The translations under genes were made by a program, and so were the position numbers. Shown in pieces: positions 6,017 through 37,633 of a stretch of DNA of 64,000 nt. This DNA is from an uncultured Clostridia bacterium. GTDB lineage: Bacteria > Bacillota > Clostridia > Lachnospirales > Lachnospiraceae. The stretch's first letter is position 1, and each line of letters starts with the position of its first letter. The notes beneath the pieces are model-generated. The model did no database searches. It had not been told where the DNA came from and saw nothing but the letters and a program-made list of their open reading frames with translations. The stretch lies in the NCBI GenBank assembly GCA_947643415.1, contig CANRWA010000001.1:1-64000 (forward strand), given 5' to 3'.

Positions 6017-6736
6017 ATGGAACCAAAAGAACAATTATTCCAGTGGATTAATGAAAGTGACAATATCGTATTTTTCGGTGGGGCCGGTGTATCTACAGAA
6101 AGCAAGATCCCCGATTTCAGAAGTGTGGATGGACTGTACAACCAGGAATATGATTATCCCCCTGAAACCATCCTCTCCCACACCTTTTTCATGAAGAAAC
6201 CAGAAGAATTCTTCCGTTTTTACCACAATAAGATGCTCTTTCCGGATGCCGAACCCAATAACGCCCATAAGGCACTCGCCAATCTGGAGAAACAGGGCAA
6301 GCTCAAAGCCGTGATCACACAGAATATTGATGGGCTGCACCAGAAAGCGGGAAGCCGGGAAGTATTGGAACTCCACGGTTCTGTGCTGCGCAACTACTGT
6401 ATGCACTGTAACCAGGCATATTCCCTGGAAGACATCATGGTGCAGGATGGTGTACCGAAATGTAAATGCGGGGGAACCATCAAACCGGACGTTGTTTTAT
6501 ATGAAGAGGGACTGGATACCTATACACTGGAGAAAGCCATTTCCTATATCCGGAATGCTGATATGCTGATCATCGGAGGAACTTCCCTGGCTGTCTATCC
6601 TGCAGCAGGGCTTATTGATTATTACCGCGGCAGCAAATTAGTACTGATAAATAAAGATAAGACCAGCCGGGACAGCCAGGCTGATCTTGTACTGCACGCT
6701 CCCATCGGTGAAATTCTCTCACCATGGAGTAACTAA
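6017..6736 (+). CDS. cobB: NAD-dependent protein deacylase, sirtuin (Sir2/CobB)
   Basis: 239 residues, normal for bacterial sirtuins. NAD-binding motifs are FFGGAGVSTESKIPDFRS (GAGxS, PDFR), ITQNIDGLHQKAG and the catalytic His in LELHGS. The zinc site is C-x2-C (NYCMHCNQ) and C-x-C (PKCKCGG). GGTSLAVYPAAG completes the Rossmann fold. It removes acyl groups from lysines with NAD as co-substrate. AAAAGGAGG precedes the ATG. It stands alone, followed closely by a convergent tRNA gene. Confidence 0.93.
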   Translation: MEPKEQLFQWINESDNIVFFGGAGVSTESKIPDFRSVDGLYNQEYDYPPETILSHTFFMKKPEEFFRFYHNKMLFPDAEPNNAHKALANLEKQGKLKAVITQNIDGLHQKAGSREVLELHGSVLRNYCMHCNQAYSLEDIMVQDGVPKCKCGGTIKPDVVLYEEGLDTYTLEKAISYIRNADMLIIGGTSLAVYPAAGLIDYYRGSKLVLINKDKTSRDSQADLVLHAPIGEILSPWSN

Positions 6737-6738
6737 AA

Positions 6739-6824
6739 CGGAGACGGTGGGATTCGAACCCACGTGCCCGTGAAGGCAAAACGATTTCGAGTCGTTCTCG
6801 TTATGGCCACTTCGATACGTCTCC
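6739..6824 (-). tRNA. tRNA-Ser (anticodon CGA)
   Basis: GGAGACG at the 5' end pairs with CGTCTCC at the 3' end, with G as discriminator base. The T-arm is GTGGGTTCGAATCCCAC, the anticodon loop is CTCGAAA (anticodon CGA, reading UCG), and there is a long variable arm (TTTTGCCTTCACGGGCAC region), as expected for serine. CCA is not encoded. Confidence 0.95.
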
Positions 6825-6846
6825 CTGTAAGAAATTGTTTCTCAGG

Positions 6847-6874
6847 CTGCTGCGGTATCGTAATACCGCAACAG
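6847..6874 (-). terminator. Hairpin after holA
   Basis: TGCGGTAT (6851-6858) pairs with ATACCGCA (6863-6870), with flanking CTG/CAG extension. It lies just past the holA stop and before the tRNA gene. The T-rich tract is weak on both strands. Confidence 0.5.
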
Positions 6875-6880
6875 TCTTAT

Positions 6881-7873
6881 TTAATCATCTTTTTTCTTAT
6901 TTGTCAATGCCTGAATGAAAAACATTTCTACAGCGAGCTGGTCCGAAAGCCTGCCTCTCTTAAAATCTTCCTCATACTGAAGCCGTCTTTCCAACATATC
7001 CCGCAGATAGGAGGTTCGGAAAAGAGATGCCTGCTTACTGTATTTGGGGACCGTAAAGGGAGGTATCCCAATCTTCTTTGCCAGCTCATTCCGATTCAGC
7101 CCCATGGCTGAAAGGTCCCTGATCTGCAGCAATATATTGATATGGCGGGAAAAAAGATACAGGATTGACATAGGCTGTTCCCGGTTAGCAAGAAGATCAT
7201 CATACAATTGAAGTGCCCTGTCCTGTTCTCCTATTGCTACCGCATCGATCATTTCAAAAATCCGTGATATGGTAAGCCCGGAACAGATGGCATCAATATC
7301 GTCATCCTCAATGGAATCCTTTTGCCCCACATAGGCAGTCAGTTTATCCAGCTCATTATTCAGCGTCTCCATATCCGTTCCCACCCGTTCCATCAGATGT
7401 TCTGCTGAACGGTTCGATATTGTTTTTCCCTGACGTTTCAGATATCCGGCAATCCATTGTTTCAGCATCGGTTCCGTCTGTGCCTGGCACTCTGTGATAC
7501 AGCCCTTCTTTCCGACCCACTTATAGAGTTTACTGCGTTTATCGACTTCCCTCTCCACAAAGACCACATAAGTGGAATCCGGAAAATCCTCCAGATATTC
7601 TACCATGTCATTTGCTTTTTTGAAAAAGCCACTGTCCTGAACCACAATAAGGCGTTGTGCCGCCATAAAGGGAAGGATCTGCCCCACATCCGCTATGGCA
7701 GAGGGTTCTGCCTTATCGCCCTGAAACACCGTGCAGTTCATCTCATCTTCAGGCGCAGACAAACGCTCCATCAGGGATTTTTTGTAATATCTTACCATAT
7801 ACCGTTCCTCCCCATAGATCAGGTGGTACCGGGATAATGAATTCTTTTTCAGTTCTTCCTGCAGTTTCAGCAT
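6881..7873 (-). CDS. holA: DNA polymerase III delta subunit
   Basis: About 330 residues. HolA is the clamp-loader subunit that opens the sliding clamp. Recognisable parts are the N-terminal YHLIYGEERYMVRYYKKSL, IVVQDSGFFK, the lid region LMERVGTDMETLNNELDKL, ISRIFEMIDAVAIG, and LYLFSRHINILLQIRDLSAMG with the C-terminal collar. The start at 7873 is chosen for GGAAGG just upstream; a longer frame to 7975 would run into comEC. It lies directly downstream of comEC, a common order in Firmicutes. Confidence 0.92.
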   Translation of the reverse strand: MLKLQEELKKNSLSRYHLIYGEERYMVRYYKKSLMERLSAPEDEMNCTVFQGDKAEPSAIADVGQILPFMAAQRLIVVQDSGFFKKANDMVEYLEDFPDSTYVVFVEREVDKRSKLYKWVGKKGCITECQAQTEPMLKQWIAGYLKRQGKTISNRSAEHLMERVGTDMETLNNELDKLTAYVGQKDSIEDDDIDAICSGLTISRIFEMIDAVAIGEQDRALQLYDDLLANREQPMSILYLFSRHINILLQIRDLSAMGLNRNELAKKIGIPPFTVPKYSKQASLFRTSYLRDMLERRLQYEEDFKRGRLSDQLAVEMFFIQALTNKKKDD

Positions 7874-7940
7874 ATCCTTCCCTCTCTTCCAAGGAACTGT
7901 CGATACTCCTATTCTAACAATTCCCTCACATAATGACAAG

Positions 7941-10094
7941 TTATTTATATGTACTGACTGTGATCTTCTCCCCATCTGTCACAGTTGTCACTGCCCCTCT
8001 CTCTATCGTACTGTATATGTCCGCACCCATGTTACGCAGCCGTTCCAGTGCGGCAGGTGCCGGATGCCCATATCGGTTGCCTTCCCCGGCAGAGATCACA
8101 GCAATCTCTGGTTTCAGTGCTGCCAGAAAATCTTCTCCGCTGGAACCTGCTGAACCATGATGTCCCACCTTCAGATAATCCACATCAGCGATCTGCCCTA
8201 TAATCTCCTGTTCCCCTTCCTTCTCCAGGTCTCCCACAAAAAGTCCATCAAAATTTCCATACTGTAATTTAAGGACCAGGGAGTAATCATTCTCTGTGTG
8301 CCAGTCATACTCCTGAAAGGGGTGGAGACACCGGATATACAACTGCCCGATCTGAATCTGGTCTCCCTTTTTCATTTTATTTACTGTAACCCCGTTATCC
8401 TGGCAGAGCTGTTCCAGCTCCTGATAGTTCTCATCTGTCTTTCCTATGCCAGGCAGAACCACAGAGCCAATATCAAACCCCATATTGTTATGAGCCTGTA
8501 CCAATTCTATGATCCCACTAGTGTGGTCGTGGTCAGAATGAGTGATAAAAACATAATCCAATCTTTGTATCCCATAATACTTTAAGTATCTGCTGATACG
8601 GTATTTTCCAATTTTTTTCACATCAGAACTTCCCCCGTCAATAAGGATTGTTTTATCCGCCAGCCGGATACAGACGCAGTCTCCCTGCCCTACATCCAGG
8701 TTCGTGATCTGCAGTTGCCCTTTCACAGGTATCTGGAAAACAAGTAAAAACACCGCTGCTACCAGAATCCCGCCCCTGACAGGCGCATCTTCTGTCCGAT
8801 AATGGGAAAGCAGGATCCATATGCCAAGCAGCAGATAATATAAGAGCATCTGCCATATTGCCGGTCTGCCCACAATATAGGAAGCCACAGGAAGTTCCAG
8901 TATGATATTGCCAAGATAATGATAAAAAAGCAATATATAGTGTACGGTACCATATAAAAACCGGCCTGCTGCCAGGCTGAATGCCACCGCCAGGCTTCCT
9001 GCCACTGACATAAAAAGCAGCACGCTGACCAGAGGAAGTACCACCACATTTAACAGTACACTGTATGGATTTATCTCAAAATAGTAATAGAGAATGACTG
9101 GCATGGTCACGATCTGTATCCCCAGGCTGCCAAGAAACACCTGCCATATCCCTGGCTGATCCCTGTCCGTCTGCTGAAAATCCTGTACAAAGACAGCAAT
9201 TCCAAACACTGTTCCATAGGACAGGAGAAAACCTGCCTGAAAGAGCACTGTAGGATGGACTAACAACTGGATCAATGCACTGAGCGCCAATGCACAGTAG
9301 AGATCATAACGCCTGCCGAGGAAACGTGCAGCGAGAAAGCAAAGCATCATCCATACCGCTCTTTGTGCCGATATGGAAAATCCGGTAAGTTCTCCATATA
9401 ATAGAAGGAGAACCCCGGTTGTCAGTGCTGCAGGCCGCATAGGCATCACATAACGGCGGAGAAGAAAAAATAATCCTGAACCGATAAAAGAGAGATGAAG
9501 TCCTGATATGGCAAGAATATGTGCAATCCCATTTTCCTGATATAACGTCTGTATCTCCTCAGACAGTGCGCATTTTTCACCAAGCACCATGGCAGCCACT
9601 ACCCCCGCCTCATCCGATGGCAGACAGGTCATGATACTGTTATAAAGGGAAGTTCTTATGTCACAGAGCCATTGTTCCGTTTTCTCGCAGGCATCATTTT
9701 CAATGGTGACAGACTGCGCAAAAAAACGGTATGAGATTCCCTGATCATGATAATACCGGTATTCATCGAACTGTCCTGGGTTGCCGGGATGTGAAAAAGA
9801 ATAGATCTTCCCTGTTACTGACAGAATATTTCCTATCTTAATATCTTTTAATATCCCCTCGCCGGATTCTGCATAAAGCTTTATGCGGCTGCACAACGGA
9901 ACTCCCTCTTCCATTACGTCACAGACAACAAGGGAAATGAACTCTCCCTGCCCGCTTATCTCCTCTGCCTGGCACTGTATTGTCTTCTGCTCCCCCTGGT
10001 AGTTCTCTCCGTCATCTTTTTCAAGAGTTCCCCTGAATACCAGGATCAAAAAAATCACCGTCCCCAGCACCACACATAAAGGACGTTTGTTCAC
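7941..10094 (-). CDS. comEC: DNA internalisation-related competence protein ComEC/Rec2
   Basis: 717 residues. The start is GTG at 10094 behind GGAGGTGTAA. An N-terminal membrane segment and DUF4131-like domain come first, then the competence domain (NGIAHILAISGLHLSFIG, GVLLLLYGELTGFSISAQRA) with many membrane spans, then a metallo-beta-lactamase domain from about residue 480 (TNLDVGQGDCVCIRLADKT, ILIDGG, FITHSDHDHTSGI, VGHHGSAGSSGEDFL). It forms the channel that passes single-stranded DNA into the cell. Downstream is holA; comEA is upstream beyond a two-component system and a GerMN gene. Confidence 0.95.
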   Translation of the reverse strand: MNKRPLCVVLGTVIFLILVFRGTLEKDDGENYQGEQKTIQCQAEEISGQGEFISLVVCDVMEEGVPLCSRIKLYAESGEGILKDIKIGNILSVTGKIYSFSHPGNPGQFDEYRYYHDQGISYRFFAQSVTIENDACEKTEQWLCDIRTSLYNSIMTCLPSDEAGVVAAMVLGEKCALSEEIQTLYQENGIAHILAISGLHLSFIGSGLFFLLRRYVMPMRPAALTTGVLLLLYGELTGFSISAQRAVWMMLCFLAARFLGRRYDLYCALALSALIQLLVHPTVLFQAGFLLSYGTVFGIAVFVQDFQQTDRDQPGIWQVFLGSLGIQIVTMPVILYYYFEINPYSVLLNVVVLPLVSVLLFMSVAGSLAVAFSLAAGRFLYGTVHYILLFYHYLGNIILELPVASYIVGRPAIWQMLLYYLLLGIWILLSHYRTEDAPVRGGILVAAVFLLVFQIPVKGQLQITNLDVGQGDCVCIRLADKTILIDGGSSDVKKIGKYRISRYLKYYGIQRLDYVFITHSDHDHTSGIIELVQAHNNMGFDIGSVVLPGIGKTDENYQELEQLCQDNGVTVNKMKKGDQIQIGQLYIRCLHPFQEYDWHTENDYSLVLKLQYGNFDGLFVGDLEKEGEQEIIGQIADVDYLKVGHHGSAGSSGEDFLAALKPEIAVISAGEGNRYGHPAPAALERLRNMGADIYSTIERGAVTTVTDGEKITVSTYK

Positions 10095-26053: not shown

Positions 26054-26608
26054 TCATCCCATGGCGCCTGACATAATGCAGACCCCTTTTGCCCCGTGGT
26101 CTGTCACCAATCTTTCATTTGCCTGACAGATCCCTCCAATTCCATAGACAGGAATCGGCACACTATCGCATATTTCCTTTAGAAACGGAAGGCCGCGGGA
26201 TGGGAGGCCTGGCTTACACGAAGTGGGAAAGATATGGCCTGCCGTGATATAGGATGCCCCCAAACGCAGTGCCTCTTCTGCCTGCTCCATCGAATGGGCG
26301 GAAGTGCCCAGTTCTGTGAAGAAAGATTTCTCCTCCTCTGTCAGGGTGCGAAACAGCGGCAGCGGCAGATGGATCATTGTATGCCCACACTCCCTTGCTG
26401 CCTGATAAAAACTATGAAAAATGCATTTCTTACCATTGTTCTGGCAGATTGCCAGTACCTCCTTTGCAAGAATATAATAGTCCCCCTCTGTCATATCCTT
26501 CTCCCGAAGAAGGATGGCATCATAATATGTATCCTCTGCCAGCCTGCGGATACGCGTGAGAAAATCCTCCTGGCACAGATGGCGGTTCGTTACCGCAATC
26601 CTATACAT
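26054..26608 (-). CDS. thiE: Thiamine phosphate synthase / TenI-like
   Basis: 184 residues, slightly short for ThiE. TIM-barrel signs are IAVTNRHLC, DAILLREKDMTEGDYYILAK, CIFHSF, IHLPLPLF, GTSAHSMEQAEEALRLGASY, ITAGHIFPTSCKPGLPSRGL, and PVYGIGGI. ThiE joins the pyrimidine and thiazole phosphates; TenI relatives aromatise the thiazole. The position right after thiH fits either. The ATG at 26608 overlaps the thiH stop by 8 nt. Confidence 0.82.
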   Translation of the reverse strand: MYRIAVTNRHLCQEDFLTRIRRLAEDTYYDAILLREKDMTEGDYYILAKEVLAICQNNGKKCIFHSFYQAARECGHTMIHLPLPLFRTLTEEEKSFFTELGTSAHSMEQAEEALRLGASYITAGHIFPTSCKPGLPSRGLPFLKEICDSVPIPVYGIGGICQANERLVTDHGAKGVCIMSGAMG

Positions 26609-27806
26609 AGATATAATCACTCATAACAGGCTGCATACCATGGGAGAGAATATCATCATATACTTCCTGCACATTCCTTGTATCATCAATTTCAAACTGC
26701 TCATCCCCCAGTTCTTCTCCACTGTGCCCACCTATCCCAACATCTACACCTGCTGAGATTTTCGTTGCCGCAATCTGGATCAGATTATCACGCACACGCT
26801 GGCATTCCCTTGTCGAAATAGTGATGGAGGCGAAGGGAAGGAGGAGACGGTAGGCACAGACTACCTGCAGAAGCTGTGCTTCCTGCACATCCATAGGATT
26901 GATCTGGTCATTATTGATAATGGGGCGCAGACGGGGGCAGGAGAAGGCAATCTCCGCATGAGGATATTTCTTCTGCAGCAGATAAGCATGTGTTCCTGTG
27001 GCAAAGGCATCCCTGCGGAAATCATCCAGTCCCAGCAGGGCACCAAACCCTACTCCTCTCATGCCTCCTCTCAGGGCACGCTCCTGCGCATTGATGCGAT
27101 AAGGGAAAATACGTTTCCTGCCAGCCAGATGAAGTGTCTCATATTTATCTGAGTTATATGTCTCCTGAAATACTGTGACATAATCTGCCCCACACTTATG
27201 CCAGTAATGATAATCTTCCGAATTTGCCGGATATACCTCAAGACCGATAACCCTGAAATACTTCCTGGCGATCTTACATGCCTCTCCAATATATTTAACA
27301 TCGGACATCTTCGGGCTCTCCCCTGTCAGAATCAAGATCTCCTGCAGGCCACTTTTGCTGATCTCTTTCATCTCCCGTTCAATTCCTTCCAGATCGAGTT
27401 TGGCACGGCGGATCTTATTGTGGCAGTTAAACCCACAATAAATACAATAATTGTCACAATAATTGGCTATGTACAAGGGGGTAAACATCATTACCGAATT
27501 GCCAAAATGTTTTCTTGTCTCCTTCTGCGCCATCTGTGCCATCTCTTCCAGAAAAGGCAGTGCTGCCGGAGACAAAAGAGCTCCCAAATCATCTGGTGTC
27601 CGGTTGTCATGATAGATGGCACGCTGCACATCTGCCGTCGTATAGCAGTTATAATCATAACCTTCCATTGCCGCTATGACTTGTCCTGCAATATCAGATT
27701 CCAATACTTCCATCCCTGCCAGATACGTCATATGATCAATGCGGTTCTCCTTCATGTCCTCACGGACGGATTCACTAATGATACTTTCGTTTATTTTCGT
27801 TTCCAC
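26601..27806 (-). CDS. thiH: 2-iminoacetate synthase (radical SAM tyrosine lyase)
   Basis: 401 residues. Radical SAM cluster motif is C-x3-C-x2-C in IANYCDNYCIYCGFNCHNK, preceded by MMFTPLY. Other signs are LILTGESPKMSDVKYIGEAC, CGADYVTVFQETYN and the C-terminal ISTRECQRVRDN. It cleaves tyrosine to dehydroglycine for thiazole ring building with ThiG and ThiS, the anaerobic alternative to ThiO. The GTG start at 27806 follows the thiG stop directly (TAAGTG), so the two are translationally coupled. Confidence 0.94.
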   Translation of the reverse strand: METKINESIISESVREDMKENRIDHMTYLAGMEVLESDIAGQVIAAMEGYDYNCYTTADVQRAIYHDNRTPDDLGALLSPAALPFLEEMAQMAQKETRKHFGNSVMMFTPLYIANYCDNYCIYCGFNCHNKIRRAKLDLEGIEREMKEISKSGLQEILILTGESPKMSDVKYIGEACKIARKYFRVIGLEVYPANSEDYHYWHKCGADYVTVFQETYNSDKYETLHLAGRKRIFPYRINAQERALRGGMRGVGFGALLGLDDFRRDAFATGTHAYLLQKKYPHAEIAFSCPRLRPIINNDQINPMDVQEAQLLQVVCAYRLLLPFASITISTRECQRVRDNLIQIAATKISAGVDVGIGGHSGEELGDEQFEIDDTRNVQEVYDDILSHGMQPVMSDYIYV

Positions 27807-28607
27807 TTACCTGACCTCCCCGTTTTGTGAGGACTGTATAAAGCCAGTCAGCGGAGACGAAGCACTGCCACCACGCTCCAGAACTCTGCCAGTCCCGGCA
27901 AGATATGCCTTTCTTCCTGCTTCGATGGCAAACTTAAATGCCTCTGCCATAGCTGGGATATCCCCTGCTGTGGCAATCCCCGTATTTGCCATAATGGCAG
28001 CCGCCCCCATCTCCATGGCAGCACAGGCTTCCGATGGTTTCCCGATGCCAGCATCTACAATGATGGGAAGATCGATTTCATCAATGAGGATCTGGATAAA
28101 CTCTTTCGTGCAGAGACCTTTATTAGACCCAATGGGAGCGGCCAGCGGCATAATGGAAGCTGCTCCCGCCTCTCTCAGGTCCCTTGCCACATTCAGGTCC
28201 GGATACATATATGGCATAACGATAAATCCTTCCTTTGCCAATATATCAGTAGCTTTGACCGTCTCATAATTGTCTGGCAGAAGATATTTGGTGTCCCGCA
28301 TAATCTCGATTTTCACAAAATCACCACAGCCCACCTCTCTTGACAATCTGGCGATCCGTACCGCCTCTTCCGCGTTTCTCGCCCCAGATGTATTCGGCAG
28401 CAGTGTAACCCCCTCTGGAATATAATCCAATATGTTCGCACGCCCATCCTGATTGGCACGGCGCAGTGCCAGTGTAATAATCTGAGCTCCGGCATTTTCT
28501 ACAGATGCCTTGATCAGATCCAGCGAGTATTTGCCAGAACCTAATATAAACCGGGAGGTAAACTCATAGCCTCCCAATATGAACTTGTCTTCCTTATTTT
28601 TTTCCAT
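27807..28607 (-). CDS. thiG: Thiazole synthase
   Basis: About 266 residues. [84 protein letters not shown] and [20 protein letters not shown] are typical ThiG; the imine-forming lysine is in KIEIM. The ATG at 28607 has AAGGA at the right distance. It forms the thiazole ring from ThiS-thiocarboxylate, dehydroglycine and deoxyxylulose phosphate. Confidence 0.95.
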
Positions 28608-28631
28608 TTTCACCATTCCTTTTTATTGTTT

Positions 28632-28668
28632 TAGCTCAACGGCGGGTTCAAATTGGCGCTGTTAAGCT
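28632..28668. repeat. Palindromic intergenic repeat, copy 2
   Basis: TAGCTCAACGGCG, loop GGTTCAAATTGG, then CGCTGTTAAGCT. It is the reverse complement of copy 1 (25939-25976) apart from changes in the second arm, which now pairs imperfectly. It lies between thiS and thiG. Confidence 0.75.
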
Positions 28669-28690
28669 TGTCTAAGAGCTAAATTTCTGC

Positions 28691-28888
28691 TCAGCCCCCA
28701 CCGACAAAACTGACTACCTCAATGCAGTCTCCCTCATGCAGCAGCGTCTCATTATAATCCCTCTTACTGACTATGGCACCATTGATCTCAATGGCAATGC
28801 GGCTCTTGTCAAAGCCCTCTTTCCCAAGCATCTCTGTCACAGAGATTTCATCATAATCCATCTTTTCCTTCCCGTTGATAGTAACCAT
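28691..28888 (-). CDS. thiS: Sulfur carrier protein ThiS
   Basis: 65 residues, ubiquitin-like fold: MVTINGKEKMDYDEISVTEM, IAIEINGAIVSKRDYNETLL, HEGDCIEVVSFVGGG. The C-terminal Gly-Gly carries the thiocarboxylate sulfur. AAAGGAGGG precedes the ATG. It heads thiS-thiG-thiH-thiE. ThiF, the usual adenylating enzyme, is not in the cluster. Confidence 0.93.
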   Translation of the reverse strand: MVTINGKEKMDYDEISVTEMLGKEGFDKSRIAIEINGAIVSKRDYNETLLHEGDCIEVVSFVGGG

Positions 28889-29118: not shown

Positions 29119-29856
29119 TTAATGCCAACAATTTTTTTTAATTGTATCAAAGAAATCCAACAGTCTCTTACAGGCGTCATATTGCTTGTCAATACCACCC
29201 TCCAAATAATCTCTCATTATTTTTTCAATTATATTCGACCAGTTAAATTTCCTATCAATAAAAACATCTCCACCCATCAAACCGTCACAGTACCCATTAT
29301 GGCTTGCATTCATCGCATACACTTCTAGTTGTTGATAAGAGCCAAACGAACCGCCATCTAATAGTTCCATTTTATCCGCATAACTGAGTAAAGCAAACAT
29401 CTCTAACTGAGTTGCTTTCTGTGGGTTTACTTTACTGATATCAACATGGTAAATTTCCTCTGTTCCACTAAGATTAGATATGACCTGCACAATGGGAGCA
29501 TCAGAACCAGGGTGATGTAAAAGCACTGCACGCATACCATAAATCACATGCTTTCCCTCTTCTGGAATCATTGCGATTCCTAAGAATTCCCCGTCCTCTT
29601 CATATTCTGACCGGGATACAGCTCCTGTGCCATCTTCTGATTCATTGGTCTTTGAGAGACTAATACATCTTATTCTCTGTTCCATCCAGGCAGAATAAGG
29701 TTTTTTATCATTTAACCCTTCTCCTATATCTAATGATTGAGATAGCTTGTCTGATTCTGAACCCTCCCGTAATCTGTATTCTCCCCTGTTTTTTCCCATC
29801 CGTTTTCCCTGACTCGGTCTCATACAAACAAAACTTACACTACTGCTTATCTGCAT
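29119..29856 (-). CDS. Hypothetical protein
   Basis: About 245 residues from the ATG at 29856 (GGAGGAAAT directly upstream); a frame from 29901 has no ribosome site. No family recognised with confidence, though the layout (an N-terminus of low complexity, then MEQRIRCISLSKTNE, LEMFALLSYADKMELLDGG, NWSNIIEKIMRDYLEGG) recalls uncharacterised Lachnospiraceae-specific DUF proteins. No signal peptide or membrane helix. Predicted soluble. It has its own terminator, so it appears to be a single-gene unit. Confidence 0.6.
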   Translation of the reverse strand: MQISSSVSFVCMRPSQGKRMGKNRGEYRLREGSESDKLSQSLDIGEGLNDKKPYSAWMEQRIRCISLSKTNESEDGTGAVSRSEYEEDGEFLGIAMIPEEGKHVIYGMRAVLLHHPGSDAPIVQVISNLSGTEEIYHVDISKVNPQKATQLEMFALLSYADKMELLDGGSFGSYQQLEVYAMNASHNGYCDGLMGGDVFIDRKFNWSNIIEKIMRDYLEGGIDKQYDACKRLLDFFDTIKKNCWH

Positions 29857-30020
29857 ATTTCCTCCTATCTGCAGTCCTTCTGGCAATCGGGACTGCACCA
29901 CACTCCCAGTTCAATGGCACCTGCATGAATCCGCCATTGAATGAAAAAGATCCAAGTGGTATAGTTTCTTAAATATTGTATCGGATAACTATGACCATAT
30001 ATTTATAGCTAATGGGGATT

Positions 30021-31130
30021 TCACCCCGCCTGTCCGGTGCCCATCATCTTTCCAAGCTGCTCTACGATTCCTGCATTTCCATTCACAGAGATCTCACCTA
30101 CCTTTTCGCAGATCCTCTCCAGGTACTCCAGCTCCTTTAGTTTATAAAGTGTCTTATTTTCATCCATCAGCTTCGCTGTATTCAGCAGGGATCTTGTGGA
30201 AGCCACCTCTTCCCTCCGGGATATCACATTGGCCTGGGCAGTCTTCTCTGCCACAAGGACAGAGTTCATAATGGCACGGATCTCACCTGGCAGAATGATA
30301 TCTTTGATCCCGGCAGTCAGGAAGTCCACGCAGAACATCTTCTCCCGCACCTTCAGCACCTTATACAGTTCACCTGATATCCGTTCCTTTGCCTCCAGTA
30401 TCTCATCCAGCTTATAGTTTCCCACGATCTCCCGGATGGCAAGCTGCACTGCCACATATAGCTGTCCCTGCAGGTCTGCGATGGTGGAAGCATACTCCAC
30501 GGCATCGTGAATCTTATAGATACAGGCTACATTCATCCGGATCCCGATCTTATCCTTTGTAAGGATCTCCTGTCCCACAATATCCAGTTCTTTCTGCTTC
30601 ATATCAAATACCCGGCAGGATATGTTGTGATGGTAGGTCCAGAAACGGTATACCCCTTTGGAAAGCGGTTTCTGCATTACATTATCAAAATATACCAGCC
30701 CGGTCTCCCCTTCTCCCACCAGCATTTCCTTATAATATTTCCCCGGTATCAGAGAAAGCATCTGCTTTGACACACCGGCTCCCATCACGGTCTCTTCCAT
30801 AGATACCAGCCGAATCTCATATTTGTCAAATACATTCCAGAACGTGTACTCCTTTCGGTTTGCAAAAGAAGTCAGTTTTCCGTTGACATAGATAAAACCG
30901 ATAGAACCATCCGGAATTTCCATATGTACAGTGGAGTCAAGAAATGCGGCATCTTTGGCAAGTACCTGGTATGGTGTCTCCAGATAATCCATCTCCCCTG
31001 TCATCTCTTCTACCACCACATCATATCCCTGTATCTTTGAAAAATGATAGGTTCCAGATGTAATCATTTTTTCAAAGATACCATTTTTTACTACAAATCC
31101 TGCTTCACTGTCAGATATTATATATTTCAC
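30021..31130 (-). CDS. SPFH/Band-7 (slipin-like) protein of an RtcB system
   Basis: 369 residues from a GTG at 31130, chosen because AAGGAGG lies 8 nt before it; the ATG at 31154 is inside the leader. Residues 1-110 and about 115-170 look like two related beta modules (SDSEAGFVVKNGIFEKMITS and VGEGETGLVYFDNVMQKPLS). The Band-7 core follows (ILTKDKIGIRMNVACIYKIH, LQGQLYVAVQLAIREIVGNY, LDEILEAKERISGELYKVL, GIKDIILPGEIRAIMNSVLV), then a coiled-coil region (AEKTAQANVISRREEVASTR). No membrane anchor is seen. Such proteins oligomerise; in RNA-repair systems they are proposed scaffolds for a tRNA-like RNA. rtcB and that RNA lie immediately upstream on the same strand. Confidence 0.85.
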   Translation of the reverse strand: MKYIISDSEAGFVVKNGIFEKMITSGTYHFSKIQGYDVVVEEMTGEMDYLETPYQVLAKDAAFLDSTVHMEIPDGSIGFIYVNGKLTSFANRKEYTFWNVFDKYEIRLVSMEETVMGAGVSKQMLSLIPGKYYKEMLVGEGETGLVYFDNVMQKPLSKGVYRFWTYHHNISCRVFDMKQKELDIVGQEILTKDKIGIRMNVACIYKIHDAVEYASTIADLQGQLYVAVQLAIREIVGNYKLDEILEAKERISGELYKVLKVREKMFCVDFLTAGIKDIILPGEIRAIMNSVLVAEKTAQANVISRREEVASTRSLLNTAKLMDENKTLYKLKELEYLERICEKVGEISVNGNAGIVEQLGKMMGTGQAG

Positions 31131-31169
31131 ACTCAATTCCTCCTTATAAATCATTTTTTAGAACCATGC

Positions 31170-31348
31170 TTCTATCCCTTTCTCATTCACGGGATGCGGA
31201 AAACTGGTTTAGCGGGATAGAACGCCCAATCCCCGCAGGCAAAGTGCGAATGGGCAAGCTTACCTGCGCCATCCAGGCGTGCCTGCGAAGACCAAAGCGG
31301 AAAGGAAGGACAGTCTGACAGGGGGTACAGTGGTGTCGGTCTGACCCC
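31170..31348 (-). other. Structured leader between the tRNA-like RNA and the SPFH gene
   Basis: No reading frame is supported between 31131 and 31476. Three stem-loops are visible: a 9-bp perfect stem TTCTATCCC/GGGATAGAA (31170-31178 with 31214-31222), GCCCA/TGGGC with inner CGCA/TGCG (31224-31255), and GGGGT/ACCCC (31321-31348). The interval may be a 5' leader of the SPFH mRNA or a 3' part of the adjoining RNA. Confidence 0.5.
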
Positions 31349-31476
31349 GCCATAATACCAGATAACTTCTTTCTCTGCTGACTGCTGTTCCTCTTTTCCT
31401 CCTGCGGTATCCCCAGCTCTCAGGCATCCAGTGAAGCTGCACTCTCACCCTGGTCTTTCTTTTGGATAAAAGCATG

Positions 31477-31725
31477 GTCTGGATGTGTGGATTCGAACCA
31501 CAGACTTTACATGTCTTGCCGTTTCTCGATAATAAGTCGAGTTTGCCCGGAAAACCGGGCAGTCATTATTGTGTACTCTACCCACTGAGTTACCATAATA
31601 TTCCATGATATCACGGAATCCATGGGAGGGAGTCGAACCCTCGACAACACAAGCCATTCTTAACCCCATGTCAGCTCAACGCTGCGCCAAGGTTAGTTGG
31701 TTGAAATATTTATGATATACCAGAC
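31477..31725 (-). ncRNA. tRNA-like RNA with two T-arms, associated with rtcB and SPFH gene
   Basis: Read on the minus strand, in order: GTCTGG (31725-31720); a D-arm-like GCGCAGC region; a T-arm GAGGG-TTCGACT-CCCTC (31642-31626); CCATGG; a 20-nt near-perfect hairpin (31619-31600); TTATGG (31598-31593); a D-arm with CTCAGTGGGTAGAG; a hairpin GCCCGG-TTTT-CCGGGC (31560-31545); an anticodon-type arm CTCGA-CTTATTA-TCGAG (31541-31525, anticodon position UAU); a T-arm TGTGG-TTCGAAT-CCACA (31502-31486); CCAGAC (31482-31477). Neither half has a normal acceptor stem of its own: CCATGG pairs with TTATGG across the central hairpin, and GTCTGG pairs with CCAGAC at the outside. It lies between rtcB and the SPFH gene in the same direction. 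Folding was done by hand. Confidence 0.75.
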
Positions 31726-31795
31726 AGCACGCTGCCGGCACCGCCGGGCAGGAAGTAACTTCCCATACCCTTGCGCAATAAATTATTTCCATATG

Positions 31796-33028
31796 TTAGC
31801 CTTTTACGACACCAACCGTTTTCAATTTACGTATAGGTGTCACCATATCCATCTGCTGTGCCATAACCTCATCAATATCCTTATAAGCAAAGCGGCACTC
31901 TTCTGCTACATCATTTTTCTTTCGTTTTCCAAGGATAACCCCTTGTTCCTTCAGGTCCACCATAACTTTCTCAATCGTAAATGCCTGCATGGCACCAGAA
32001 CGGGAATAATTTCTTCCTGCTCCATGGGATGAGGTACAAAAAGACTCTTTGTTCCCCTTTCCCTCTACGACATAACTGTAAGAGCCCATGGCACCTGGTA
32101 TCACGGCAAGTTCTCCCTTCCGCACTCTGGTAGCTCCCTTGCGGTGTACCCATACATTGGCATCATAATGATTTTCCAGTGCCGCATAATTGTGATGACA
32201 GTTGATCTCTTCCCCAAACTCCACTGTCTTCCCTGTATGTTTCCTGATCAGTTCTTCTACAATAGAACAGGTTTTATCCAGCATACGGGCACGGTTTTCA
32301 AATGCATAATCCATGGCAAGATTCATCCAGTGTATATACTGCTGGCCCTCTTCGGAATGGACAGGAAGAAATGACAAACGGTATTCATCTTTTACCTCAC
32401 TGTACCACATCAGATTCAGTTCCCTTGCTTTTGTATGAAAATAATCACAGATCGCTTTCCCCAGATGACGGCTGCCCGAATGTATCATAATACAGAGATA
32501 CCCTTCCTGGTCCTCCTGAAGTTCAATAAAATGGTTGCCGCCTCCCAGGCTTCCCACCTGAAAATATCCATCATCAATCAAGGGCAGCAGCTCTGCATTC
32601 TTTTCATATTTCTCCATTTCCTGCTTCGCCTGGTCAAGCACCAAAGACTCCTGCGGCTCTTTATATCTCTCTGCATTTAATGGAACCGCTCTCATAATAC
32701 TGCCGATCATCGCCTGAATCATGTTGCCATTTCCTGTCTGGATCTCCCGTATATCATCCATGCGGATATTGGTTGGGATAAAATCCATGCCACAGCCGAT
32801 ATCAACCCCTACAGCATTTGGAATAACCACATCCTTTGCTGCAATCACCCCGCCGATGGGCATCCCCTTTCCTGCATGGGTATCTGGCATAAGACAAACC
32901 CATTTATGTATAAAGGGAAGCTGTGCCAGATGATATGCCTGATCCAGACAATTTTCCTCCAGCTTCGTTTTATCCTCTAACCATACTTTAACTGGAAATC
33001 TTGTGTTTTCATCATATAATACAAACAT
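31796..33028 (-). CDS. rtcB: RtcB-type RNA ligase
   Basis: 410 residues. RtcB joins 2',3'-cyclic phosphate or 3'-phosphate RNA ends to 5'-OH ends using GTP and manganese. Motifs: LMPDTHAGKGMPIGGVIA, NAVGVDIGCGM (metal Cys), SLGGGNHFIELQ, MIHSGSRHLGK, NCHHNYA, VHRKGATRVRKGELAVIPGA, MGSYSYVVEGKGN and SHGAGRNYSR with the guanylylated His. GAGGAGG precedes the ATG. No archease or RtcA gene is nearby; the partners here are the tRNA-like RNA and the SPFH gene downstream. A TATAAT sits about 100 nt upstream of the start (near 33110) as a possible -10. Confidence 0.95.
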   Translation of the reverse strand: MFVLYDENTRFPVKVWLEDKTKLEENCLDQAYHLAQLPFIHKWVCLMPDTHAGKGMPIGGVIAAKDVVIPNAVGVDIGCGMDFIPTNIRMDDIREIQTGNGNMIQAMIGSIMRAVPLNAERYKEPQESLVLDQAKQEMEKYEKNAELLPLIDDGYFQVGSLGGGNHFIELQEDQEGYLCIMIHSGSRHLGKAICDYFHTKARELNLMWYSEVKDEYRLSFLPVHSEEGQQYIHWMNLAMDYAFENRARMLDKTCSIVEELIRKHTGKTVEFGEEINCHHNYAALENHYDANVWVHRKGATRVRKGELAVIPGAMGSYSYVVEGKGNKESFCTSSHGAGRNYSRSGAMQAFTIEKVMVDLKEQGVILGKRKKNDVAEECRFAYKDIDEVMAQQMDMVTPIRKLKTVGVVKG

Positions 33029-33183
33029 ATGTCCGCCTCCTCTTTTCCTTATCTTTAAACCAGCGTTTCAAACTGCTATCTGCCGTTCCACTTGATGTTA
33101 CGCTTATTATATACAACATTTACCAGTTTATCATTTCAAAAAAGTTGCGAGGGAATTAATCTTACTTTCTATTCTCTCCCATT

Positions 33184-33204
33184 TGTGTTACAATGTGTTA
33201 TATT
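33184..33204 (+). promoter_or_regulatory. Direct repeat overlapping a -10-like element upstream of the WYL genes
   Basis: TGTGTTA occurs at 33184-33190 and again at 33194-33200, ten bases apart, one helical turn. The second copy runs into TATATT (33199-33204), a possible -10 for the WYL gene starting at 33251. The -35 is poor, as is common where an activator works. A binding site for one of the WYL proteins is plausible but unproven. Confidence 0.35.
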
Positions 33205-33250
33205 TTATTTTGAATGAAAGAATATGGTTGGCAGAAAAAAGGAGATTACT

Positions 33251-34522
33251 ATGTCTGATTTTCAGGAGTTGATAAAGAGTTTCCCCAAGACACGGGAATA
33301 TGTCCGGGATTTTTTCGTCTATGGATTCAAGACCCGGAATGATTTTAACGAGAAAAGCCCACGGACCTATGACAATGAACGCCGGAGGCTGGAATGCTGG
33401 CTGAGTCCTTTTGTGAGAAAGGATTATGCCTCAAACGGTTCCAATATTTCCCTCGCCATAGACAGCAATCTACTTGATACCAACCCGTTGTTTCAGGTAT
33501 GGAAGACGAAGAGCTTTACCGATAACGATATCGTCCTGCATTTTCTGATACTGGATCTTCTTCAGGGCGGGGAAGCCATGACGGCAGATGAGATCACAGA
33601 TGCCCTGATCACCGAATATGATGTGCTGTTTGATATCCAGGCAGTGCGGCGCAAATGCAATGCCTATGTGAAGGAAGGGCTGCTGAAAAAGGCGAAGTCC
33701 GGAAAGACTGTTACCTTTTCTCTGGACAGCAGCATTGCCCTCTGGATCAATGCAAATAACAATATATTAGATGCCCTGGACTTCTATCAGATGGCGGGTA
33801 ATTTTGGAATTATCGGAAACGTTCTGTCAGAGCAGTTTGATCATCACAACCAGAGCTTTCGCGTAAAACACAGTTTTTTCGTTCACTCATTGGAAGATGA
33901 GGTACTTTTGGATCTTGTGGACGCAATGAATAAAAAAGAATCCATACAGTTGGAGATCCAGAGCCCAAAACAGAAAGGATCTTCTGGTAAAATAAAAAAT
34001 ACAGCGGTCTGTGTCCCATTACAGATCTTTATCAGTACCAGAACTGGACGGCGTTTTCTGTGTGGATACGTGGCACGGAACAAGCGCTTTACTTGTTTCC
34101 GGCTGGATGCAATAAAGAAAGCCACGGCGATAGGACAGGCAGACCGATATGATGAATTATCCGATAAACTCAATCGGAACCGGCAGCATCTATGGGGTGT
34201 ATCCTTTCAAGGAGAGACAAAGCGTCATCTGGACCGGCTGACGATGACCATACAGATTCTGGAACCCAGCGAAACCTACATACTGAACCGTCTGAAAAAT
34301 GAAGGAAGAGGTGGTACTGTCACGAAAATAGCAAGAAACACCTATCAGTACGAGGTTGAAGTATTTGACTGCAATGAAATGCTCCCCTGGATCCGTACCT
34401 TTATTGGCAGGATCTTATCTTTGGAATGCACTGCCAAATCGGTGGAAAGACGGTTTTACCAGGACCTGAATACAATGTACCATTTATATCGGGAAGGAGA
34501 GACAGATGGAACTATTTTCTGA
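33251..34522 (+). CDS. WYL-domain transcriptional regulator 1
   Basis: 423 residues from the ATG at 33251 (AAGGAG 8 nt upstream). N-terminal part with FQELIKSFPKTREYVRDFFV and RRRLECWLSPFVRKD, a winged-helix segment (FLILDLLQGGEAMTADEITD, AVRRKCNAYVKEGLLKKAKS), and a C-terminal WYL-like domain (VCVPLQIFISTRTGRRFLCG, YVARNKRFTCFRLDAIKKAT). WYL domains often sense nucleic-acid or nucleotide ligands. It is divergent from rtcB and overlaps the next WYL gene by 17 nt. Confidence 0.82.
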   Translation: MSDFQELIKSFPKTREYVRDFFVYGFKTRNDFNEKSPRTYDNERRRLECWLSPFVRKDYASNGSNISLAIDSNLLDTNPLFQVWKTKSFTDNDIVLHFLILDLLQGGEAMTADEITDALITEYDVLFDIQAVRRKCNAYVKEGLLKKAKSGKTVTFSLDSSIALWINANNNILDALDFYQMAGNFGIIGNVLSEQFDHHNQSFRVKHSFFVHSLEDEVLLDLVDAMNKKESIQLEIQSPKQKGSSGKIKNTAVCVPLQIFISTRTGRRFLCGYVARNKRFTCFRLDAIKKATAIGQADRYDELSDKLNRNRQHLWGVSFQGETKRHLDRLTMTIQILEPSETYILNRLKNEGRGGTVTKIARNTYQYEVEVFDCNEMLPWIRTFIGRILSLECTAKSVERRFYQDLNTMYHLYREGETDGTIF

Positions 34523-35546
34523 AATATATAGCTGCTATTATCAGGTAATGCGGCATTTATTATGCAGCCAGAACCCAGTTACGATACAAAATATCCGTCA
34601 GCAGATCCATGGGGAAGGATTTGAAGAAAGCCTGCTCGCCATCATACCCAAACTGGAAAACGGTGCCTGGAATTTGTTTGAGAAAGAGGGGACCCTCTTC
34701 CTCTCGAAGCTTAATTCCTCTTTTGTTATGCCTCTTTCCACCCTGGAAAAATCTTATCTGAAAGCGCTTCTGTCAGACCCCCGTATCGGATTATTTCTGG
34801 ATGATTCACAGTGGGATGCACTAAATGTCATGCTGGATTCTGTCGCTCCACTTTTCAGTCCAGAACAGTTCTACTACTATGACCGGTTTTCCGACGGAGA
34901 TCCGTATGACGACAGCAGATACCGAAGCAACTTCCGCACTCTGCTCGCCGCACAGAAAAAGAGGCAATATGTGGATCTTGATTACAACTCACCTTCCGGA
35001 AAACGGGTGCATCACTACTATGTGCCCGCGCGGCTGGAATACTCCGTAAAAAATGATAAATTTCGGCTTCTTGCCCTGAAACACATGTATAGGAACAAAA
35101 GAACGACAACGAAAAACTTCGACGAGGAAAGTCTGGTATCAGACAAAGTAAAACTGGAAATCCTGAATCTATCACGGATTCAAAGTATCCGGCCTACAGA
35201 TAAAACCCTTCCAACACAGGTCGACCTGAATGCAATTATTCGGAAAACCTATTATAAGGAGCCACTCCGGCTGCATATTATCAACCGGCGGAATGCCCTG
35301 GAACGCGCCATGCTGCACTTTGCCAACTATGAAAAAAATACAAGAAAAATAGACCAGGACACCTATGAGTGCCTGATCTATTATAACCAGTCTATGGAGA
35401 CAGAACTTCTGATCGAAGTCATGTCCTTTGGTCCCATGCTGAAGGTACTGGGAAATAAACGTTTTCTAAAGAGCCTGAGGACAAGGCTTCAGAAACAGAG
35501 GGACCTGATGGAGCAGATGGATTCCTTCAGACAGTATAATCTTTAA
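34506..35546 (+). CDS. WYL-domain transcriptional regulator 2
   Basis: 346 residues. N-terminal winged-helix-like part ([40 protein letters not shown]), then WYL domain ([51 protein letters not shown]) and the WCX-type C-terminus ([20 protein letters not shown] in part, [20 protein letters not shown]). Its start lies inside the first WYL gene, so the two are translationally coupled and likely act together, perhaps as a heteromer. The 3' end overlaps the convergent chemoreceptor-like gene by 20 nt, which leaves no room for a terminator. Confidence 0.85.
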
Positions 35547-36453
35547 TAATAGGTGGTATCTGTCCCATCATATTATCAATATCCTCAAACATAGCACTCT
35601 TCGTTGTTCCCATATTGGCTGCACGGTTGATATGACGGGACACTTCCTGATATCCCTGCTTCATATTATCAAAGAAATCACATAGTTTCTGTAATTCAGC
35701 CTTTGACGAATCAATGACCTGGGAGATTTCAGCCTGTACCATAGTTGCCCCTTCTGCCGCTCCTGTGATACTATCAAATGTTTCATATGTTTCTTCCACT
35801 TTTGTCAGGCTTTGTTCCAGTGCCTCATGGGACGTAACGATGCTGGCGCTGAGCTGGCCTGCACCCTCCTCTACATCACCGACACTCACATCTACCGCGG
35901 CGACAAGGTCTTTAATCTCATCTGACAGATTTTTTACCTCCTCGGCGACTACCGCAAAACCTTTTCCCTGTTCTCCTGCTCTTGCCGCCTCAATAGTGGC
36001 GTTTAGTGAAAGGATATTCGTCTGATCGGCAATCGTGACAATTTTCTCCATGCATTTTCTGATCTTATTCAGAGAAAGCTGGAATGTATCAAATGTACTC
36101 TTCATTTCATGAAAATGTGCCTCTACCTGCAGGGAACTCTTTTTCAATTCTTCTACTTCGCCCTGCGCCTCAACCACAGACTGTGAAATGTTCTCCTTTA
36201 CAGAATCAAATTGGCTGGAGGCTGTATTGATATTGGAAAAATTCTGTTCAAAATCATCTAATGTTCCCTTAAAATTTTCAGATTCTGCCAGAACCCTTCC
36301 AAAGGACCTGTTTACCATGCTCAGTTCATACAGAGACTCCACTTCACTCTGCACCAGCATATGATGATATTCTTTCAGGCTATCCATAACATATAACACC
36401 GGATAAAGGCTTGTGCCCTTACTCTGAGATTTCTTTGATATTTTCATTTCCAT
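35527..36453 (-). CDS. Soluble methyl-accepting-chemotaxis-type protein
   Basis: 308 residues from the ATG at 36453 (GAGGAGGAAC upstream). No membrane segment. An N-terminal ~60-residue helical part ([20 protein letters not shown]) is followed by a long coiled coil carrying the conserved MCP signalling tip ([40 protein letters not shown]). MCP tips contact CheA and CheW. It directly follows a FIST-domain gene (stop to start 10 nt), and the pair follows hydA, so a soluble sensor complex is suggested. Confidence 0.88.
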
Positions 36454-36463
36454 GTTCCTCCTC

Positions 36464-37633
36464 TTACTCAAAGACAACACAGGTCATAGACTGGTTGACA
36501 AACTGGTTATTGTAATGTTCCCCGTATCCCACCAAACCGGCATGGCTGCCGAGAGCACTCATTTCCTGCAGATACTCTTCCATGTAATGATGATCATTAA
36601 AGAGCAGGTACCGGAACAGGCAGTTTACTGAAAATACTGCTGATATCTTTGGAAAATCTCTCTGGATCATACGGATTGTATCTTTTACAATCGCTTTAAA
36701 ATCTCCCAGTTCCAGCATAATAAGCACATCCGAATCATTTACCTGGCGGAAACATGTCAGGGCATCCCCACTTACTTCCTTGATGGATATGATACAGGTT
36801 TCATTTCCATTGATTTTTCCAAAAGGATTTTTAAAGGTCTGTGTCTCAATCTCACCTTCTGTTATGTGAAGAAGCTCTTGATAAACTTTCCTGGCAGGCA
36901 TTCCATTTAATTTCCCCATAATGTAATTCGCTTTATCCGTCTGCGAGGCGATAAAACGGCCATTGCCCATAGGATGGTAAATATTTTCCTTATATGCTTT
37001 TACCCTTCCCTGGTTATTTTTCACCAACGCATATGCTACCGCATCCTCATATATCCTGCCATTGGCAGATACTTTTCCAGCATCTCCCGTTCCGCCTACC
37101 AATGATATGCCCTTGTGTTTCAGCGCACTATAGATCGTAGTCAGCACACAGGCATCATTACCGGAACAAAAATCAATGCAGATCGTATTTTCGCCAGAAC
37201 TATTTATTTTTTTTATATCCTGCTCCAGCCTTTCAATGTACTTTACTGGCATAACAGATACCTCTTCCAGTACATTCGCAGTAGCACTGATTCCATCATA
37301 AAATGCTACAACGCTGACTCCCTTTTCAACTACTTTCGTGTCATAGCTCATCCCGATGCATCCAATACTGGGGATTTTCGGGAAAAGTTGTTCTAGTTTT
37401 TTTACATGTTCTTCAAACTGGTCACTGTTAGATAATAACATGATTAACTGGGGTGATTCCAGTCCCCGTACTGCTTCCTGCAGATTTCCACTCTGGCTCT
37501 TTCCAAAAAACTGTCTCAAAACATTACCCTCATTTCTATATATTTTCTTGTGGGAGAAAATCCCGTTATTTGCGGAGCAAGAATCACAATGCGATTCTTG
37601 GGGCATCGCGGTTTTCGGCCGATGTTTTTTCAC
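36464..37633 (-). CDS. FIST-domain sensory protein
   Basis: Up to 389 residues. The FIST_N domain ([76 protein letters not shown]) and FIST_C domain ([80 protein letters not shown]) are clear. FIST domains are thought to bind small ligands such as amino acids. The frame opens with GTG at 37633, overlapping the hydA stop; a TTG at 37519 preceded by GAGGG would begin right at the conserved domain and may be the true start. Between them lies a hairpin CAAGAATC/GATTCTTG. Confidence 0.85.

Follow-up and report, generated by a model that had tools for sequence, protein, structure and literature searches.

The window analysed here, a stretch of 64,000 nucleotides from an uncultured Clostridia bacterium of the Lachnospiraceae (contig CANRWA010000001.1, positions 1 to 64,000), harbours a locus with genes for an RNA ligase, a structured RNA, an SPFH/Band-7 protein and two WYL-domain regulators. 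The regulator genes wyl1 and wyl2 are found on the plus strand, and rtcB, the noncoding RNA and the SPFH gene lie divergent from them on the minus strand (Table 1). This arrangement, including the overlapping reading frames of the divergent pair, was noted in a preliminary description of the sequence and is confirmed by the coordinates and by matches to PF01139 and PF01145. The PF01145 match of the SPFH reading frame (30021-31154, minus strand) reached 76.9 bits against a family cut-off of 23.6, which places the protein in the SPFH/Band-7 family, and a start at the GTG codon 31128-31130, behind AAGGAGG, appears more likely than one at 31154. The window copies of wyl1 and wyl2 had no Pfam match of their own; their designation as WYL genes was borne out through their families (PF13280, WCX and WYL), so that the domain assignment is carried by relatives only. 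The window's genome (4.6 Mb, 94.6% complete) was searched in its entirety and contained no archease, no RtcA and no TROVE, which extends to the whole genome the earlier remark that archease and RtcA are absent nearby. A second rtcB is located elsewhere in it.

Table 1. Features of the locus in the window (positions of the window; hyphenated ranges are parts of the permuted transfer RNA (tRNA) module)
Feature	Position	Strand	Basis or remark
SPFH/Band-7 protein	30021..31130	-	beta repeats followed by SPFH domain and long helix; no membrane segment by hydropathy
Noncoding RNA	31400..31790	-	approximate extent by conserved 5' block and GGATACC 3' block; ends inferred
Second T-arm	31487..31501	-	one of the two T-arms of the RNA
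Anticodon-like hairpin, loop AUGUAAA	31502..31516	-	position matches that of the CUGUNAA hairpin in relatives
Permuted tRNA module	31569..31652	-	R1 72.1 bits; covariation; letters checked
Module closing stem	31648-31652 paired with 31569-31573	-	part of permuted tRNA module
Module T-arm	31626-31642	-	part of permuted tRNA module
Module capped acceptor	31593-31625	-	part of permuted tRNA module
Module D-arm	31575-31590	-	part of permuted tRNA module
rtcB, RNA ligase (type A)	31796..33028	-	PF01139 match 361.9 bits; blocks conserved in 27/27 aligned
-10 box TATAAT	33106..33111	-	15 nucleotides after promoter element
Conserved promoter element TCGCAACTTTTTTGAAATGATAA, candidate WYL site	33128..33150	-	conservation across loci
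wyl1, WYL-domain regulator	33224..34522	+	PF13280 in 28/35 family members (E 0.01); window copy without match
wyl2, WYL/WCX regulator	34506..35546	+	start overlaps wyl1; WCX in 18/36 and WYL in 6/36 family members (E 0.01)

The locus represents a real and conserved system of a class predicted before: Burroughs and Aravind (2016) reportedly predicted SPFH/Band-7 proteins with a tRNA-like RNA in RNA-repair systems, with SPFH, RNA and RtcB said to lie side by side as they do in the window. Set beside that class, the present system appears to differ in an optional RtcB, a permuted tRNA, a WYL pair and a promoter element. A scan of genome contigs with an SPFH alignment gave at least 551 relatives, 80 of which were kept; with L031, L033-L036 and the window these form a working set of 86 loci selected by the SPFH protein only. 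The tRNA-like RNA precedes SPFH in 82 of the 86 loci, WYL genes were recognized by sequence match in 58 (both as separate matches in 52, fused in L062 and L064) and rtcB likewise in 56, in agreement with the earlier proposal that the genes form one conserved system. No rtcB was seen in the other 30, some of which are on short contigs, and in L074 the gene is about 5 kb distant. Among the 64 loci with at least 3 kb of upstream and 1.5 kb of downstream flank, 36 had WYL and RtcB, 11 WYL only, 5 RtcB only and 12 neither. With 23 of these 64 lacking rtcB, RtcB was rejected as the core of the system; judged by gene content, the core is the RNA with SPFH, and RtcB is optional, of two types and in two positions. 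No regular additional partner emerged around L031-L116, where the cluster that ranks behind SPFH, WYL and RtcB occurs in 8 loci only, and 10 neighbour proteins from 9 of 22 RtcB-less loci belonged to unrelated families or to no family. The SPFH family is sparsely distributed (E 1e-50): with the window's genome counted each time, it was present in 7 of 398 genomes from the phylum, 11 of 392 from the order and 10 of 391 from the class. Viral contigs yielded no SPFH relative (51 pattern matches, none confirmed).

That the RNA is real, as the preliminary description had it, is supported by a fold z-score of -3.4 in the window (31471-31740) and by the distribution of its T-loop, which occurs on the sense strand upstream of SPFH in 78 of 85 loci, on the antisense strand in 0 of 85, downstream in 2 of 79 and inside SPFH in 0 of 86. 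The RNA lies farther upstream of SPFH in L046, L047, L082 and L089, which raises the total to the 82 given above; no such RNA or T-arm module was seen upstream of SPFH in L071, L072, L087 and L108. In L046 the RNA, at about 4.1 kb, is separated from SPFH (7016) by a 688-codon frame on the same strand. The synteny and covariation checks proposed at the outset gave a conserved layout and, among 45 diverse aligned sequences, pairing in 94.6% of cells versus 67.3% in shuffles, with both sides changing in 15 of 18 pairs and slid registers faring far worse. A structured RNA is indeed present at the predicted 31477-31725, but the conserved sequence is wider, from about 31790 to about 31400. The label tRNA-like holds for the T-arms, acceptor and D-arm, but these are permuted, the T-arm is present twice, and neither ARAGORN nor Rfam calls a tRNA at the window RNA; identity as an ordinary tRNA or transfer-messenger RNA was accordingly rejected. 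ARAGORN likewise found no tRNA at the RNA in 20 loci scanned. The module resembles the junction of tandem tRNA genes, with the T-arm of one tRNA, the D-arm of the next and a capped acceptor between. In L112 the minimum-energy fold has an anticodon arm with UUU besides the T-arm, capped acceptor and D-arm. For the RNA in general, a closing GGUAU/AUACC helix is possible. A model of the permuted module, R1, scored at least 55 bits in 49 of 86 sources, among them four outside model building (L046, L047, L061, L081); the remainder either stayed at or below 38 bits or gave no score. Among 61 relatives, R1 scores of at least 65 bits were confined to exactly the four genomes whose SPFH is at least 75% identical to that of the window, and the other matches, among those listed, reached 53.2 bits at most.

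The YrlA model RF02553 has the same permuted succession of T-arm, capped acceptor stem and D-arm. Against this model the window RNA scored 32.4 bits, under the Rfam gathering score of 69 bits, and of 8 other loci scanned five scored 29-37 bits and three not at all. Such sub-threshold scores were rejected as proof of Y RNA identity, as 160 of 249 genomes from the phylum have them, in no case above the cut-off, and tRNA genes account for 10 of the 12 loci from the YrlA search that were checked. The RNA is no tRNA but contains a permuted tRNA module shaped like that of YrlA. The two YrlA-search loci without tRNA genes (L162 and L164) both lie in a layout where WYL2 and WYL1 are divergent from an RNA followed by a TROVE gene (L170 and L171). 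In L170, WYL1 matches the WYL1 profile of the system (E 8.9e-17) and WYL2 the WYL2 profile (E 1.8e-10); the cross-comparison fails (probability 1.9%). The RNAs of L170 and L171 carry a T-arm, capped acceptor, D-arm and a possible CUGUUAA hairpin, and in their minimum-energy folds the anticodon-like stretch pairs differently. Both loci, from two other genomes, show Ro60 in the place of SPFH next to a WYL pair that matches. TROVE/Ro60 was found in none of the 61 relatives, the window's genome included. Six TROVE loci were present in 299 genomes, L170 and L171 among them; R1 scored at least 38 bits in five, one of which is a true tRNA pair, and WYL genes were near three of the six within the stretch examined. 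In L181, WYL2 and RtcB share one 756-residue open frame (6614-8881, minus strand), neighboured by WYL1, Y-RNA-like RNAs and a Ro60 gene split over several frames.

The structure model of the SPFH protein (mean predicted local distance difference test score, pLDDT, of 82) comprises N-terminal beta repeats, the SPFH domain and a long helix. A simple test gave no sign of the membrane anchor that SPFH members usually have, as no 19-residue hydropathy mean exceeded 1.6 in 81 sequences. Nearest among solved relatives are stomatin-type proteins, and among the 50 matches listed only chains of the major vault protein align from residue 1-2 through the SPFH domain. The two share beta repeats, SPFH domain and helix; however, the N-terminal part predicted alone (pLDDT 94.8) gave a best Foldseek E value of 0.036 and no significant match to the major vault protein, so that homology of the repeats, and with it a vault homologue, is not established.

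Hairpins resembling anticodon arms were identified in a census of all loops upstream of SPFH with stems of at least 4, in counts not corrected for relatedness. Among seven-base loops the T-loop variants rank first, followed by CUGUNAA (19 of 86 loci versus 0.83 expected from the rest of the loci); the D-loop AGTGGNTA leads the eight-base loops (13 loci, 0 in the background) and GNGGTT the six-base loops (18 loci versus 0.83 expected). With stems of at least 5 pairs CUGUNAA was not among the 12 top loops listed. The top triplets of the 64, in loci versus expectation, were GUC (10 versus 0.58), GUU (7 versus 0.50), UAA (6 versus 0.74) and GUA (5 versus 0.41); GUG occurred in 2 loci versus 0.17 expected. 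Taken together, GUN loops were present in 22 of 86 loci on 21 distinct stems. The AUGUAAA hairpin of the window falls outside the strict counts because its first loop base differs. CUGUNAN hairpins numbered 24 in 76 kb of upstream sense sequence, 3 in antisense and 17 in 1009 kb elsewhere, and among 25 further loci, two of them already used and two from one genome, such a hairpin was present in 5 in sense and in 1 in antisense. The triplets GUA, GUG, GUU and GUC coincide with the target set of colicin E5 (PMC6277466) and with the queuosine tRNAs (PMC12313893).

Two types of RtcB are associated with the core. Type A precedes SPFH in 35 loci and scores at least 241 bits against the window protein, whereas type B follows SPFH in 21 loci with at most 148 bits, the score ranges not overlapping; identity to the window RtcB among 27 aligned sequences is 63-88% for type A and 28-31% for type B. 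The blocks DIGCGM, GGGNHF, HSGSR and HGAGR, which we take to be catalytic, are largely invariant across the 27. From scores and positions, we read the two types as probable separate recruitments of RtcB to one core. In two genomes without a close SPFH relative (G012 and G060), WYL1 is divergent from a window-type rtcB. No RNA-SPFH pair was present within the 4.1 kb stretch around these genes in either (L127 and L128, respectively), and L127 holds an exact copy of the 22-base promoter element.

This element, TTCGCAACTTTTTTGAAATGATAA or its variant TTCGCAGCTTTTTTTCCGTGATAA with at most five mismatches, was found in sense in 65 of 86 loci and never in antisense, and 27 of 33 loci have a -10-like box 15 nucleotides behind it. 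A looser scan with 22 bases produced a few stray matches, and in the window's genome the element occurs once (at most 3 mismatches). Of the 77 loci with at least 2.2 kb upstream, those with WYL genes had it in 54 of 57 cases and those without in 8 of 20 (Fisher p 1.1e-6, with no correction for relatedness). It stands before rtcB or, where rtcB is lacking, before the RNA, and it is also found in the WYL-RtcB-only locus L127. Because full, RtcB-less and WYL-RtcB-only loci have the element in common, the WYL pair likely controls the operon jointly through a dedicated promoter. Of the earlier suggestion that the pair turns on ligase, scaffold and RNA together, the joint control is likely, with an RtcB that is not obligatory (none seen in 30 of 86). 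The adjacent genes and the natural WYL1-WYL2 fusions in L062 and L064 are suggestive only of a heterodimer like PafBC.

The reading we favour, with a probability of roughly 55%, is that of a WYL-controlled, inducible operon for RNA damage, found in some gut bacteria, whose products would form a Y-RNA-like particle, SPFH standing in for Ro60. As a probable activator like PafBC, the WYL1/WYL2 pair would act at the dedicated promoter and turn on RtcB, the permuted-tRNA RNA and the soluble SPFH protein together. RNA and SPFH would then form a particle, used much as Ro60 uses Y RNA; this particle, the WYL ligand, the activation and the bait function are putative. The RNA displays parts of tRNA, namely the T-loop, the D-loop and, in a quarter of the loci, a GUN anticodon-like loop, and could not be charged because its acceptor stem is capped. 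It may be a bait for tRNA-cutting or tRNA-handling enzymes, or a platform on which they dock, and RtcB, where present, would reseal cut RNA, so that the system may help cells survive attacks on tRNAs. The proposal that Salmonella YrlA is a competitive inhibitor of anticodon nuclease counts in favour of this operon (PMC7790460, in excerpt). A more ambitious form is tentative and on the whole doubtful: SPFH and Ro60 would be interchangeable partners of one class of unchargeable, circularly permuted tRNAs, the anticodon-like loop, mostly GUN where present (the colicin E5 target set), would be bait or sensor for anticodon nucleases, the WYL pair would be a second heterodimeric WYL activator, with one dedicated promoter, and RtcB would reseal the damage.

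Several observations weigh against the operon-and-particle reading. R1 also scores tandem tRNA gene junctions, as all six such loci checked were tRNA arrays, once at 60.4 bits, and its score alone cannot therefore identify the RNA. Minimum-energy folds of the window RNA do not give the complete module, and the strict GUN hairpin is missing in 64 of 86 loci. In L071 and L108 a T-arm module is missing although promoter element and SPFH are retained, no RNA is seen in L087, and neither of the Ro60 loci, L170 and L171, yielded the promoter element. Another RtcB, RtcB2-PrfH, is reported not to protect against tRNA-cutting colicins (PMC9223846). The RNA of L071 and L108 may be shrunken; blocks of the GGTATACC/GGATACC type are also retained there upstream of SPFH.

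Other explanations assign the RNA a different role. It could be a cis leader of the SPFH transcript whose tRNA-like folds tune SPFH to tRNA-handling enzymes, with no particle involved, as its position upstream of SPFH in 82 of 86 loci, wherever rtcB sits, and its end a few hundred bases before SPFH would fit. We consider this unlikely, since in L046 the 688-codon frame and about 3 kb intervene, and since similar RNAs precede Ro60 genes and Y RNAs are described as acting in trans (PMC8394870, in excerpt). The RNA might also guide decay, tethering a ring protein to PNPase or another nuclease that degrades structured or damaged RNA, with RtcB a mere neighbour. The shape of YrlA, which docks PNPase according to the same excerpts (PMC8394870), and the 30 of 86 loci without RtcB speak for such a tether, but RtcB of two types has joined the core, each type in its own position, and L181 has a WYL2-RtcB fusion, and we hold this role, too, to be improbable. 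That the RNA is a chance product, the functionless remains of tandem tRNA genes, is favoured by the match of tandem junctions to R1; the compensatory changes across 45 diverse sequences, the conserved flanking blocks and the lack of an ARAGORN tRNA at the RNA in the window and the 20 loci scanned make this highly implausible.

In Salmonella, Ro60 (Rsr) and YrlA accompany rtcBA, and bacterial Ro60/YrlA shares with the present system the T-arm, capped acceptor and D-arm module and an adjoining RNA ligase (PMC7790460 and PMC8394870, both in excerpt). The differences from Ro60/YrlA-rtcBA in these sources are that SPFH replaces Ro60, RtcA is lacking, WYL replaces RtcR and extra anticodon-like hairpins are present in some copies. 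An operon of the rtcBA/RtcR type is defined by RtcA, of which the window's genome has none. PaFlo8 of Pseudomonas aeruginosa is an SPFH gene inside an rtc locus, so that SPFH adjoins RtcB as it does here, but RtcA and RtcR are present there, and an RNA is unmentioned in the available portion of the source (PMC13086221). Beyond PaFlo8, searches of openly licensed papers for RtcB with SPFH, band-7 or slipin listed no account of this layout. The mycobacterial heterodimeric WYL activator PafBC likewise consists of two WYL proteins from adjacent genes, with its own promoter motif and -10 box, and PafBC and orthologues are, in the excerpted source, the only heterodimeric WYL proteins reported (PMC11804915). 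The system described here differs in having one dedicated promoter, with heterodimer and ligand both putative.

The locus is flanked by thiamine genes on one side (ThiG, ThiS and a radical SAM BATS protein, 26054-28888) and by a protein with a chemotaxis-signalling domain and a FIST protein on the other (35527-37633). Downstream of SPFH is a 260-codon frame (29119-29901, minus strand) without a Pfam match at 1e-3. A drum RNA (RF02958, 82.9 bits) at 8194-8308 on the plus strand of L066 is unrelated to the system.

Possibly new in this conserved system are a permuted-tRNA RNA that occurs without Ro60, its GUN loops, the promoter element and the swap with Ro60 next to a WYL pair that matches. The system separates the permuted-tRNA RNA from Ro60 and pairs it with a protein of another family. 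With its defined promoter element and a loop that is a candidate bait, it makes it possible to test whether RNAs of this sort sense attacks on tRNA or absorb them.

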